The position numbers and the translations under genes are program-made. From the NCBI RefSeq assembly GCF_900184815.1, contig NZ_FXXQ01000008.1:1-64000 (forward strand): a stretch of 64,000 nt of DNA, given 5' to 3'. This DNA comes from Boseongicola aestuarii (lineage in GTDB: Bacteria > Pseudomonadota > Alphaproteobacteria > Rhodobacterales > Rhodobacteraceae). How positions within the stretch are numbered: position 1 is the stretch's first letter; each line of letters opens with the position of its first letter. Positions 4,318 to 48,002 of this stretch are shown here, piece after piece. The notes beneath the pieces are model-generated. The model had not been told where the DNA came from. It ran no database searches and was given only the letters and a program-made list of their open reading frames with translations.

Positions 4318-4452
4318 CCGGGCTCTGGCGGGCAAAAGCTCGCCTTTCGTTATTCAATGACGCCGATTGGCGCGCAGTTCGAGGCGGTATGACACCGAAA
4401 CATCCGGGCAATGTCCGGGGGCCAAAGAACGCGGAAAATGAAGGAAGATCAG

Positions 4453-5124
4453 ATGTTTGCGGTCATGAAGACCGGCGGAAAACAGTATCGGGTTCAGGCG
4501 GGCGATGTGCTCCGCGTGGAAAAGCTCGCAGCTGACGCCGGCGAAAAAATTCAGTTCAACGAGATTCTCATGGTGGGTTCGACCGTGGGAACGCCTCTTG
4601 TAGACGGTGCCGGCGTTCAGGCCGAGGTCATCGATCAGATCAAGGGCGAAAAGGTCATTCACTTTGTGAAGCGTCGCCGTAAGCACAGCTCGAAGCGCAC
4701 AAAGGGCCACCGCCAGCAGCTTACTCTGCTGCGCGTGACCGACATTCTGGAAAAGGGTGCCGACAAGTCTGGCGTCAAAGCGGCTATGGGTGCGGGTTCC
4801 GTGTCCGGTGTTGCCGTTGCTGCGGCGAAGCCTGCCAAGAAGGCGGCAGCGAAAAAAGAAGCTGCCCCCGAGACTAAAGCCGCGGCACCTGCGAAAGCAG
4901 CGCCGAAGGCGAAAGCTGCCGATGCAGGTGCTGACGATCTCAAGAAGCTGTCCGGCGTTGGTCCGGCGCTTGAGAAGAAGCTGCACGCTGCTGGCGTCAC
5001 CACATTTGCGCAGATCGCTGCGTGGGGCGCTGATGACATTGCCGAGTTCGACGAAAAGCTGTCGTTCAAAGGCCGTATTGAACGCGAAGGCTGGGTCGAT
5101 CAGGCCAAAGCTCTCGCCGAATAA
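4453..5124 (+). CDS. rplU: 50S ribosomal protein L21 with C-terminal helix-hairpin-helix extension
   Basis: A 223-residue protein. The ATG at 4453 (MFAVMKTGGKQYRV) follows an AAGGA ribosome site and is the usual L21 start; the longer frame from 4411 is not used. Residues 1-103 are canonical L21, including the RRRKHSSKRTKGHRQ rRNA-binding loop. A low-complexity Ala/Lys/Pro linker follows (about 110-158), then a helix-hairpin-helix domain (DDLKKLSGVGPALEKKL, residues about 160-223). Standard L21 is about 103 residues, so the protein is doubled in length. The same domain ends NuoE and a membrane protein elsewhere in this window. Cotranscribed with rpmA. Confidence 0.95.
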   Translation: MFAVMKTGGKQYRVQAGDVLRVEKLAADAGEKIQFNEILMVGSTVGTPLVDGAGVQAEVIDQIKGEKVIHFVKRRRKHSSKRTKGHRQQLTLLRVTDILEKGADKSGVKAAMGAGSVSGVAVAAAKPAKKAAAKKEAAPETKAAAPAKAAPKAKAADAGADDLKKLSGVGPALEKKLHAAGVTTFAQIAAWGADDIAEFDEKLSFKGRIEREGWVDQAKALAE

Positions 5125-44231: not shown

Positions 44232-44588
44232 ATGGCTTCTGGGATTTTCATATTGGTGTCTGCGATGGCGCTTTTGGTGACGGATGGTCTGACCGTTTTG
44301 GTCATGCGTGATCCGGTGGCCGGATTGGCGCGCATCGATCACCATCTGGAAGACTTGCCTCAGGTCATGGCCGGGCGGTATCTCACGTTATTCGTACTGG
44401 CACTTGGGGCCGCCATTCATGGTGATCCCATTGTCTTTTTTGGCCTGTTTGTCGCCTTCGCGGTCGCAAGTGCGGCTGATACGTTCATCTATGCCCGAAA
44501 GGGCAAGAAATACGGACCTCATCTGGCTGCGGGCGTTGCCTCGGTTGCAGGTGCAGGCCTTAGCCTTATAGCCGCAGGAGCCAATTGA
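44232..44588 (+). CDS. Three-helix membrane protein between nuoD and nuoE
   Basis: A 118-residue hydrophobic protein with about three to four helices (4-24, 48-66, 68-88, 95-115) and a short loop with basic residues ([11 protein letters not shown]). No family is recognised. It starts 2 bases after nuoD, and its stop TGATG overlaps the nuoE start. Possible complex I accessory or assembly factor by context only. Confidence 0.65.
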
Positions 44589-45661
44589 TGCTGCGCCGAC
44601 TTCACAAAGACCAACCCGACCATTTCGCGTTCACCGACGCCAACCTTGCCTGGGCCGAGGCTCAGATCAAGAAGTACCCGGAAGGGCGTCAGGCCAGCGC
44701 GATTATCCCGCTGTTGTGGCGCGCGCAGGAGCAGGAAGGCTGGCTGACACGGCCTGCGATGGAAGCGGTCGCGGCGATGCTGGATATGGCCTATATCCGG
44801 GTGCTTGAGGTTGCGACGTTTTACTTCATGTTCCAGCTTCAACCCGTTGGATCGGTTGCACATATTCAGGTCTGCGGCACGACGTCCTGCATGATTTGCG
44901 GGGCTGAGGATCTGATTGGCGTCTGTAAGGAAAAGATCGCCAAACGTGCGCATGATCTGTCCGCGGATGGTAAGTTTTCATGGGAAGAGGTCGAATGCCT
45001 CGGGGCTTGTGCGAATGCGCCGATGGCGCAGATCGGCAAGGACTATTACGAGGATCTGACGGCGGCGCGTCTGGGCGAGATCATTGACGAGATGGCGGCG
45101 GGTAAGGTCCCTGTGCCGGGGCCTCAGCAGGGGCGCTATGCGGCCGAGCCTGCGGGGGGTCTTACGTCTTTGAAGGATCATGAAAGTGGTCGGGCCAAGT
45201 ACAATGCCAGTGCGCAGGCGGCGGTCGATATCGGCGATACGATCAAGCGGATCGACGGCACCGAGGTGCCGCTTTTGACGCCTTGGATTGCGGCCGGGGA
45301 CACGATTACCAAATCGCGTGAGGCCGAGGTCAAGACTCTTGCCCGGTCGAAGGAGCCGGCCTCTTCCGAGGCCAAAGCCAAAAAGATCGCCCGCCCCGAA
45401 CAGGGCAGCGTTGCCCCCGAAGGCGCAAAGCCCGCAGGGTTTGGCGAAGCGCGCGGCGGTCAGGCGGATGATCTGAAAAAGATCAAGGGCGTCGGGCCGA
45501 AGCTGGAAAAGCTTCTGAACAGCCTTGGGTTTTTCCACTTTGACCAGATCGCCAACTGGACGGCGGATGAGATCGCCTGGGTCGACGACAATCTGGAGGG
45601 TTTCAAGGGCCGCGTGACGCGCGATGAATGGGTCGCGCAGGCCAAGGTGCTTGCAGATTAA
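44588..45661 (+). CDS. nuoE: NADH-quinone oxidoreductase subunit E with HhH extension
   Basis: A 357-residue protein. The ATG at 44588 lies in TGATG. Residues 1-200 are the thioredoxin-like 2Fe-2S subunit with ligands in [13 protein letters not shown] and [14 protein letters not shown]. Residues about 200-290 form a linker. Residues about 292-357 are a helix-hairpin-helix domain ([17 protein letters not shown]) highly similar to the C-terminus of L21 and of the next gene product. Ordinary NuoE is 160-240 residues, so this is a fusion. Confidence 0.95.
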
Positions 45662-45738
45662 TCGGATCAACAGAAATTTTGCCTAAACGCGAATCCTGAT
45701 ATATCCATGGTCCGTCAGAAGAATTTGGAGGCGCGTTA

Positions 45739-46293
45739 ATGTCACGACACACTCAAGGCTCGCTTGCGATTGTGGGAGCAATTGCTGGAGCTGTCTTCCT
45801 GGTTGCGTTCGTTGCGATGTATGTTCTCAGTGACTACTCGATTTCGGCGGCAGTGTTTTTGGCGTTGCTTCCGGCGGCGGCAGCGGCGGTTGTTCTGTAC
45901 CGGGGATTTGCGGATGGAGCGCAAGCGGCTCGCCCTGCAGCACCGGTTGCCGCGCCAGCTCCGAAGCCTGCACCTGTGGCTGCTGAGGCTGAGGCGGCGC
46001 CCGCGCCTGTTGCGGCTGCGGCAGAGGGCAAGCCTGCCGGATTGGACGGCCCGCGCGAGGGAGGTGCTGATGATCTCAAGAAAATCAAGGGCGTCGGCCC
46101 AAAGCTTGAGAAGCTATTGAATTCAATGGGATACTGGCATTTTGACCAGATCGCCGCATGGGGCGAAAGCGACGTGGCCTGGGTTGACGAGAACCTTGAA
46201 GGCTTCAAGGGACGCGTGTCGCGCGACAATTGGGTATCTCAGGCCAGCACGCTTGCAAGCGGCGGCGAGACCGAGTTTTCCAAGCGCGCCTGA
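45739..46293 (+). CDS. Membrane-anchored HhH-domain protein (nuoE paralogue tail)
   Basis: A 184-residue protein with two N-terminal hydrophobic helices (about 8-30 and 37-55), a Pro/Ala linker (about 65-105) and a C-terminal helix-hairpin-helix domain ([20 protein letters not shown], then HFDQIAAWGESDVAWVDENL). It is nearly identical to the NuoE tail. It follows nuoE by 77 bases and may derive from duplication of that tail. It could tether a partner to the membrane near complex I. Confidence 0.75.
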   Translation: MSRHTQGSLAIVGAIAGAVFLVAFVAMYVLSDYSISAAVFLALLPAAAAAVVLYRGFADGAQAARPAAPVAAPAPKPAPVAAEAEAAPAPVAAAAEGKPAGLDGPREGGADDLKKIKGVGPKLEKLLNSMGYWHFDQIAAWGESDVAWVDENLEGFKGRVSRDNWVSQASTLASGGETEFSKRA

Positions 46294-46424
46294 CCGGCTT
46301 TTTGCGCTTTTCGTGGCCCCTGGGGCCGCGCACAAGATCAGGTGAGGGCGACAAACCGCCCCGCCATTCTCGAAGGGAACAAAGAGAGCGCCGGCCAATG
46401 GCGCCTCGCGAAAAAGTGGACCAT

Positions 46425-46661
46425 ATGAGCGATATGAGCGACGATCGGAACCATCAGAAGTCACAGTCGCGACAGGCTCGGCTTGTTTCGGTGGTGATTG
46501 CGTCAACGATGATCCTTTGGATGTTGGCGCAGTTCGTTGGCCGAGAACTGGGGCTTCCCTCTCGCTACGTTTTCCTGTTTGACCTGTTTGCGCTGGCCGG
46601 GTTCTTTTGGGCCCTTGTGGTGACCTGGCAAATCTGGCGTAAACGACGCGACACGGAATGA
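46425..46661 (+). CDS. DUF5337 domain-containing membrane protein
   Basis: A 78-residue protein. Alternative starts are an ATG at 46398 and a second ATG three codons after the chosen one, at 46434. Two helices (SVVIASTMILWMLAQFVG, FLFDLFALAGFFWALVVTW) end in a basic tail. It matches the DUF5337 family of Rhodobacteraceae, which occurs in nuo clusters. Function is unknown. Confidence 0.75.
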   Translation: MSDMSDDRNHQKSQSRQARLVSVVIASTMILWMLAQFVGRELGLPSRYVFLFDLFALAGFFWALVVTWQIWRKRRDTE

Positions 46662-46703: not shown

Positions 46704-48002
46704 ATGCTCGAAGACAAGGACCGCATCTTCACGAATATCTATGGGATGCACGATCGCACGTTGAAGGGCGCGCAGGCGCGCGGCCATTGGGATGGCACGG
46801 CGGGTATCATCCAGAAGGGGCGCGACTGGATCGTCGATCAGATGAAGGCCTCGGGGCTTCGTGGTCGTGGCGGTGCGGGGTTCCCGACGGGTCTGAAATG
46901 GTCCTTCATGCCGAAGGAAAGCGACGGTCGTCCGAGCTATCTGGTGGTGAATGCCGACGAGAGTGAGCCGGGGACTTGCAAGGACCGCGAGATCATGCGC
47001 CACGATCCGCATACGCTGGTCGAAGGCTGTCTGATTGCGTCTTTCGCGATGCAGGCGCACGCCTGTTATATCTATATTCGTGGCGAATACATCCGCGAGA
47101 AAGAGGCGCTTCAGGCCGCGATCGATGAGGCCTATGACGCTGGTCTGGTGGGCAAGAATGCCGCCGGGTCGGGGTGGGATTTCGACATTTATCTGCATCA
47201 CGGCGCGGGCGCGTATATTTGCGGCGAGGAAACCGCGCTGCTGGAAAGCCTTGAGGGCAAGAAGGGTATGCCGCGGATGAAGCCGCCATTCCCGGCGGGT
47301 GCGGGGCTTTACGGCTGTCCGACGACGGTTAACAACGTTGAATCGATAGCCGTTGTGCCGACCATTCTGCGCCGCGGGCCTGAGTGGTTCGCAGGCTTTG
47401 GGCGTCCCAACAACTCGGGCACCAAGCTGTTTGCGATCTCTGGTCATGTGAACCAGCCCTGTGTGGTCGAAGAGGCAATGTCGATTTCGTTCGAAGAACT
47501 GATCGAACGTCATTGCGGTGGTATTCGCGGCGGCTGGAAAAACCTGAAAGCGGTGATTCCGGGTGGATCGTCGGTGCCGTGTATTCCCGGCAAGGTGATG
47601 AAAGAAGACGCGATCATGGATTTCGACTGGCTGCGCGAACAGCGGTCGGGGCTGGGAACGGCCGCCGTGATCGTGATGGACAACGACACCGATATCATCA
47701 AGGCGATTTGGCGCTTGTCGAAGTTCTACAAGCACGAAAGCTGTGGTCAGTGTACGCCTTGCCGCGAGGGTACGGGCTGGATGATGCGCGTGATGGATCG
47801 ACTGGTGCGCGGCGACGCCGAACCGCACGAGATCGACATGCTGCTGGATGTGACAAAGCAGGTCGAAGGGCACACGATCTGCGCCCTTGGAGATGCGGCG
47901 GCTTGGCCGATTCAGGGGTTGATCCGCCATTTCCGCGATGAGATCGAGGACCGGATCAAACATAAGCGGTCGGGGCGGTCATCGGTCGTGGCGGCGGAGT
48001 AA
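46704..48002 (+). CDS. nuoF: NADH-quinone oxidoreductase subunit F
   Basis: A 432-residue subunit binding FMN, NADH and cluster N3. Motifs are [16 protein letters not shown] (NADH), [33 protein letters not shown] (FMN) and the cluster motif [13 protein letters not shown] (about residues 350-365). It follows the DUF5337 gene by 42 bases with a GAGG-type site. Confidence 0.97.

Follow-up and report, generated by a model that had tools for sequence, protein, structure and literature searches.

The window analysed here, 64,000 nucleotides of Boseongicola aestuarii DNA, encodes three proteins that end in one related tail of about 65 residues, a helix-hairpin-helix (HhH) domain, as seen in Table 1. 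They are ribosomal protein L21, the complex I subunit NuoE and a membrane protein of 184 residues, which has its gene between nuoE and nuoF and is treated below as an orthologue of the published protein-O. The first-pass annotation had located all three tails, had recognized the L21 tail as clearly related and had described the NuoE and protein-O tails as nearly identical over about 65 residues. The kinship stands, but the degree was overstated: the NuoE and protein-O tails share 75-76% identity over about 66 residues, and their genes share 72% over 230 bases at the DNA level. The NuoE and L21 tails share 58-59% identity. When the B. aestuarii genome was searched with the NuoE tail, the tail itself (E 4.7e-43), protein-O (E 1.1e-31, 76%), a fourth copy on contig C25 (E 2.0e-28, 68%) and L21 (E 2.0e-17, 58%) were found. 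The similarity of the tails in the window is far beyond chance, and they share a common ancestry.

Table 1. The tailed genes of the window, their HhH domains and the neighbouring nuoF
Feature	Position	Strand	Evidence
bL21 (rplU), Lys/Ala-rich linker and C-terminal HhH domain	4453..5124	+	NCBIfam NF008915, E 7.2e-105; TIGR00061 L21, E 4e-28
HhH domain of L21	4930..5121	+	
nuoE, 24-kDa subunit of complex I; long linker, HhH domain at the C-terminus	44588..45661	+	PF01257, E 1.5e-52; NF009040 PRK12373, E 1.1e-171
HhH domain of NuoE	45464..45658	+	AlphaFold2, pLDDT 95.1
Orthologue of protein-O: membrane hairpin of two helices, Ala/Pro linker, HhH domain at the C-terminus	45739..46293	+	phmmer, profile, gene place
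Two transmembrane helices of protein-O (approximate)	45763..45903	+	Hydropathy; low-confidence AlphaFold2 model with two helices (pLDDT 69.7)
HhH domain of protein-O	46066..46263	+	
nuoF, downstream neighbour fixing the order nuoE, protein-O, nuoF	46704..48002	+	ORF

The bL21 ORF extends over 4411-5124 with its stop codon at 5122-5124, and its likely start was set at 4453, since in the translation of 4411-5121 residue 15 is the first to be covered by the NF008915 match. The ORF of nuoE is 44585-45661, of which the ATG at 44588 was taken as the start. We take the ORF at 46704-48002 to be nuoF on the strength of a sequence motif. A small membrane protein is encoded at 46425-46661, between protein-O and nuoF; similar ORFs were seen by eye before nuoF at several other loci, and an NCBIfam search with the frame 46230-46658 gave no match. 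The fourth HhH copy (contig C25, 47896-48090) belongs to a 233-residue protein built like protein-O, with membrane helices, a linker and the HhH domain. By eye, the gene of this second protein-O type (L005, 7882-8583, minus strand) adjoins pseudoazurin-like and isopentenyl-diphosphate isomerase (idi)-like genes, and the stretch is flanked by two near-identical integrase-like ORFs of 315 residues, so this region of contig C25 is possibly mobile.

Pfam HHH models matched NuoE and protein-O only under their cut-offs. With HHH_5 (PF14520), NuoE reached 21.3 bits and protein-O 14 bits, below the gathering cut-off of 27 bits. The NCBIfam families for NuoE, L21, S2 and the phasin PhaH all overlap the HhH domain, and the curated models PRK12278 (L21), PRK12373 (NuoE) and PRK12311 (S2) already contain the tail; they are named by host, and the names are silent on tail function. 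We take COG3743 to be the COG for the tail domain. An HhH tail inside curated families, together with a published protein-O, is the ordinary part of these findings. Less ordinary are the exchange of the tail among ribosome, complex I and membrane protein, its presence on bS1, uS2, bL27 and a phasin, and the occurrence of protein-O outside the phototrophs.

HhH is a fold often used to grip DNA. AlphaFold2 confidently predicted the NuoE tail to be compact and helical, with five helices at least four residues long (pLDDT 95.1, pTM 0.81), and the model has the HhH-type fold with glycine hairpins expected of DNA-binding HhH domains. Foldseek gave no match to this model at E 0.001, the best being RadA recombinases. 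VIA also placed RadA N-terminal regions first (3etl, Z 8.7, rmsd 1.8, 59 residues, 30% identity), a Z only a little above background, as models without a clear match reach Z near 8. Further VIA matches were RAD51 (Z 6.5), a mitoribosome chain from Trypanosoma, Y-family polymerases, NusA (Z 5.5) and SAM (Z about 4). NusA and SAM domains both bind proteins. The predicted fold is thus like that of the RadA/RAD51 N-terminal domain, but the sequence match is weak (E 0.18) and covers the first hairpin only, and the second hairpin of the tail reads F-K-G-R-x-x-R, unlike RadA/RAD51. Class-wide, the positions that are 88-100% conserved include D2, L4, G9, G11, P12, G22, Q28, A30, G49, R50, R53, W56, Q59 and A60. 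Six of these lie in the two glycine hairpins (G9, G11, P12 and G49, R50, R53), positions 50 and 53 are each basic in 95% of the class-wide rows, and W56, D2 and L4 reach 99-100% conservation irrespective of host and family. The mean net charge of the domain in the Rhodobacterales is -1.6 on NuoE, -0.4 on protein-O and -3.2 on L21, and it is negative on all class-wide hosts save one phasin, at +3.

The membrane protein of the window was matched by phmmer to chain O of PDB 8yy9, 'Reaction center protein O chain' (E 4.4e-39, residues 93-183), and to chain a of 9wqv (E 1e-33), both through the tail. Its N-terminus alone did not match 8yy9_O and is only 12-66% identical to the other rows of a profile built from 42 N-termini, its own and those of 41 of 68 relatives. 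This profile matched residues 1-65 of 8yy9_O (E 4.3e-11), 9lts_A ('Protein LRC', 8.2e-10) and 9wqv_a (0.0062); our literature search found no paper naming 9wqv or LRC. An AlphaFold2 model of the N-terminus had a pLDDT of 69.7, too low for a fold search. In passages of the paper that describes it, protein-O is a new subunit that Dinoroseobacter shibae builds into its RC-LH1; its two membrane helices occupy the gap between RC and LH1, and it has a flexible loop and a C-terminal domain resembling the C-termini of NuoE and other proteins (PMC12079452). The same passages place its gene between nuoE and nuoF and leave open the function of the protein and of its C-terminal domain (PMC12079452). The similarity between NuoE and protein-O and the gene place are therefore already published. 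A disulfide at both hairpin ends faces the cytoplasm in that description (PMC12079452), so the tail of protein-O would also lie in the cytoplasm.

The D. shibae protein (ABV93056.1; PDB 8yy9, 8yz2, 9jpb) and that of the window are alike in gene place, two-helix N-terminus (for the window, based on the profile), linker and HhH domain. They differ in that the former has a Cys10-Cys59 disulfide, whereas the latter is without any cysteine, and in that the former sits in RC-LH1, whereas the B. aestuarii genome, which is 99.96% complete, gave no match to the reaction-centre family Photo_RC (a control cyanobacterium was matched). The absence of phototrophy in B. aestuarii is judged from Photo_RC; a search with the PRCH family matched no control. 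Because of the missing Photo_RC match, we call the window protein a protein-O orthologue and not a reaction-centre subunit.

To see how widely the tail occurs, a domain profile, which would miss more divergent copies, was searched against two genome samples. It matched 34 of 385 genomes sampled evenly over the Alphaproteobacteria and 99 of 398 in a phylum sample, 95 of the latter in the same class and four outside it (E 7.4e-7 to 3.0e-5); among the Rhodobacteraceae genomes listed in the phylum sample, 25/27 matched. The hosts found across the class were bL21, NuoE, the protein-O type, uS2 (genomes G149, G268, G362 and G440), bL27 (G389, L200) and, both in G262, bS1 (L215) and a phasin (L213). 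Further hosts were single-helix membrane anchors, often with a coiled coil, and proteins that combine a pair of HhH domains with several hydrophobic stretches (L174, L199). Pfam confirmed six of ten representative hosts (the L27, S1, S2, phasin, L21 and NuoE families), and no informative N-terminal family was found for L199, L171, L212 and L232 with Pfam or, for part of the representative set, NCBIfam. The phasin host passed the PF14520 cut-off with 28.9 bits. The bS1 with its HhH tail lies at L215, 315-2354, and the bL27 at L200, 919-1695, is the sole copy found in its genome. The NCBIfam 'sunset domain' family of S2 is another S2 variant. Tails were also found on plasmids, in 7 of 72,556 records (four Sinorhizobium, one each of Shinella, Rhizobium and Methylobacterium); a phage search gave no match at E 0.01. 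In the open-access literature that we searched, this list of tail hosts (ribosome, complex I, granule, membrane) was not found in print, and on the NuoE or L21 tail we found nothing relevant beyond a passage on a Halomonas PHA synthase.

The number of copies per genome bears on what the tail is for. For a domain common to the ribosome and complex I, the first-pass annotation had suggested one binding partner or a targeting role, such as translation of membrane subunits near complex I. A link specific to these two was not supported: 21 of the 34 class-wide genomes showed a single copy, which was ribosomal in eight (bL21 in five, uS2 in two, bL27 in one), membrane-anchored in 11 and unclassified in two (G115, a frame with a hydrophobic stretch, and G391); a second copy may have been missed in four of the 21, which are under 85% complete. 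An obligate bridge from ribosome to complex I is therefore not the general function of the tail, and the tail sits on other hosts as well. The same annotation had named, as grounds for dropping its proposal, a domain widespread in unrelated proteins with no shared partner. The other hosts bear out the first half of this. All tails may have a partner in common, for which something ubiquitous, like DNA, would be the better candidate.

The exchange of tails between hosts was followed in close relatives, the best 80 of 574 confirmed loci found with the NuoE N-terminus, of which the named ones are mostly Rhodobacteraceae. In these best 80 loci, NuoE has the tail in 77, all but L008, L077 and L083, where it lacks one. 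L21 was compared at 70 loci, from 70 of the 79 genomes, and is without the tail at 2 of them, and the L21 tail of G022 was left out of the comparison as shorter than 55 residues or containing an unread residue. For three L21 genes beyond these 70 (G028, G034 and G066), the match is confined to the first 135-144 of the 216 positions. In addition, the alignment with 8qby_E, a solved NuoE chain of the Paracoccus type (239 residues), is limited to the part preceding the tail. By eye, the HhH domain comes in two lengths, and both were seen on NuoE as well as on protein-O. In a tree built from 216 tails, the host label changed twice for L21 and 21 times each for NuoE and protein-O, compared to about 60 changes with shuffled labels; the exact count is soft because there were 66 usable columns and 122 of 208 inner branches were open. 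Well-supported branches force at least three changes each for NuoE and protein-O. Thus, NuoE and protein-O tails cluster by host beyond chance yet are mixed and do not form two groups, which supports the earlier suggestion that the third protein could be a copy of the NuoE tail on a membrane anchor. In one genome (G027, L033), the NuoE and protein-O tails both fall in one well-supported set (97) with 66 of the 68 L21 tails. The mixing on the tree and the placement of both G027 tails among L21 tails suggest that tails are interchangeable between hosts. At L063, the nuoE and protein-O tails share 90% of 247 bases, and we read this pair as a recent copy. Two further loci were noted in passing. 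In G071 (L077, L154) the HhH domain is on protein-O only, with none on L21 or NuoE, and at L083 (3136-4538) a tailless NuoE is followed by two consecutive HhH frames, protein-O and a weaker one.

A lead to the function of the tail came from phasins. According to a passage in a review, the N-terminus of Caulobacter crescentus PhaH attaches to PHB granules, and its C-terminal HhH domain binds DNA nonspecifically; the review also states that phaH deletion disorganises the granules (PMC13052382). Part of another article repeats the nucleoid idea for PhaH and places an HhH domain on a Haloferax PHA synthase from an AlphaFold model (PMC12028471), and the Halomonas PHA synthase passage gives a COG3743 match (PMC8686332). 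The NCBIfam PhaH model (NF045508) matched all four B. aestuarii copies and 26 of 240 class genomes, 21 of which reach its HhH end, but none of the 240, B. aestuarii included, passed its cut-off. Two of the controls, Caulobacter vibrioides and Methanocaldococcus jannaschii, were matched, one of them over the cut-off. The window tails and PhaH are therefore alike in having a C-terminal HhH of the same family, while the granule-binding N-terminus that the review passage gives to PhaH belongs to a protein with no counterpart over the cut-off in B. aestuarii.

Since the HhH domain of PhaH is reported to bind DNA and the PhaH model matches the tails, our preferred reading, still a tentative one, sees in the tail a portable module for nucleic-acid binding that most likely tethers assemblies loosely to the nucleoid. 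In many alphaproteobacteria, a flexible linker would join it to assemblies that are large or membrane-bound: the ribosome, complex I, storage granules and a two-helix membrane protein able to join the photosynthetic core. By binding DNA (or RNA), the tail would influence where these assemblies lie, as PhaH reportedly does for PHB granules, and a general tethering role is more probable than a connection of two machines alone. All classified tail hosts are parts of assemblies or membrane-anchored, which counts for this reading. So do the predicted RadA/RAD51-like fold, the conserved glycine hairpins with their basic positions 50 and 53, the likely cytoplasmic side of the protein-O tail and the HhH domain reported for the Haloferax PHA synthase. 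Several points count against it. The net charge of the domain is negative, and the L21 tails, the most acidic of the three, fit weakest. The structural comparisons gave a Z near background, no Foldseek match, and protein-binding folds among the matches. DNA binding by PhaH comes from the review passage. Finally, the tail is dispensable in places, as L21, NuoE and protein-O-like loci without it were found.

Another possible explanation, which we consider unlikely, follows the lines of the first-pass annotation: the tails would bind one another, or all bind a single protein, and thereby let ribosomes dock at complex I and at the membrane. At least two HhH copies were found in 78 of the 80 nuoE-selected genomes (best 80 of 574), B. 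aestuarii included, and the weaker structural matches of the predicted fold include the protein-binding SAM and NusA. In addition, NuoE and protein-O tails from the same genome are 68.2% identical compared to 66.4% for mismatched pairs, a difference reached in 7 of 20,000 shuffles (67 genomes). However, this excess may be due to gene conversion, as the pair at L063 suggests, and differences between genomes in rate or base composition could add to it. The L21 tails showed no such excess with NuoE (51.5 vs 51.2%, 4564 of 20,000 shuffles, 66 genomes) and at most a weak one with protein-O (51.8 vs 51.3%, 1053 of 20,000, 59 genomes). The single-copy genomes of the class-wide sample also argue against docking.

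A role in translation is quite unlikely; here the tail would bind RNA (rRNA, mRNA or tRNA), and its copies on membrane proteins would draw ribosomes or transcripts to the membrane. Four ribosomal hosts, drawn from both subunits, would suit such a role, as would the solved eL32 (PDB 9l94, chain Q), whose N-terminus weakly matches the domain profile (E 0.0012). On the other hand, the phasin and PHA synthase hosts and the RadA/RAD51-like predicted fold point to DNA, and some genomes have their sole found copy on a membrane anchor.

The place of protein-O in the D. shibae RC-LH1, as given in the passages cited above, raises a further explanation, that it is a dedicated photosynthesis subunit of which B. 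aestuarii keeps a relic after losing its reaction centre. Photo_RC was searched in the 79 genomes of the best 80 loci and was present in 17/39 and 22/40. At 68 of the best 80 of 574 loci, nuoE is followed by a membrane protein with an HhH domain, and the order nuoE, protein-O, nuoF was seen in all 63 of these protein-O loci whose stretch includes nuoF. The tailed protein-O was present in 37 of 38 phototrophs compared to 30 of 39 non-phototrophs (Fisher p 0.014; best 80 of 574, leaving out the two unclear loci L072, which has a run of N, and L075, where no membrane helix was seen, as well as L016, which is not among the 79 searched genomes). The position of the second B. aestuarii copy near an idi-like gene, seen by eye, would also agree with a photosynthetic past. 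However, the Fisher test rests on related genomes and the association was not seen on the five supported independent pairs of the NuoE tree, too few to decide either way, and we therefore do not claim an association between protein-O and phototrophy. What is new is that protein-O is not confined to phototrophs: 30 of the 39 non-phototrophs keep it beside nuoE. In four more, at L017, L039, L054 and L056, a membrane protein of the same kind is apparently kept without the HhH tail, judging from the translations. The cysteine pair was considered as a mark of photosynthesis and was rejected, since it is not commoner in phototrophs (18/37) than in non-phototrophs (19/30); being variable (37 of 67 relatives among the best 80 of 574), it was not treated as defining protein-O. 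A photosynthetic relic is thus clearly improbable.

Lastly, a tail without shared function, spread nearly neutrally by duplication and recombination, would account for the losses and swaps of tails and for the mixing being greatest between nuoE and protein-O, which adjoin, but it is very improbable given the 99-100% conservation of W56, D2 and L4 in all hosts and families and the many separate loci at which tail hosts lie.

The reading of the tail as a nucleic-acid tether can be extended to a bolder form, which we regard as doubtful. Here, one interchangeable HhH tail would be a shared address label tying ribosomes, complex I, the photosynthetic core and granules to the chromosome, and protein-O would be an old anchor of the nuo operon that was recruited into the photosynthetic core. 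If this were true, translation, respiration and storage would be placed against the nucleoid by one module. With ribosomal, granule and membrane hosts, finding the ligand of the isolated domain would inform all of them at once. That non-phototrophs keep protein-O next to nuoE shifts attention away from photosynthesis and towards the respiratory chain or the organisation of the membrane. Regarding the linker of this protein, a motif of approximately LPG..EL..RKG.W.Y, its ends partly cut, was seen by eye in the protein-O-like proteins at L158, L183, L017, L039 and L054, and so also in some that have lost the HhH tail.
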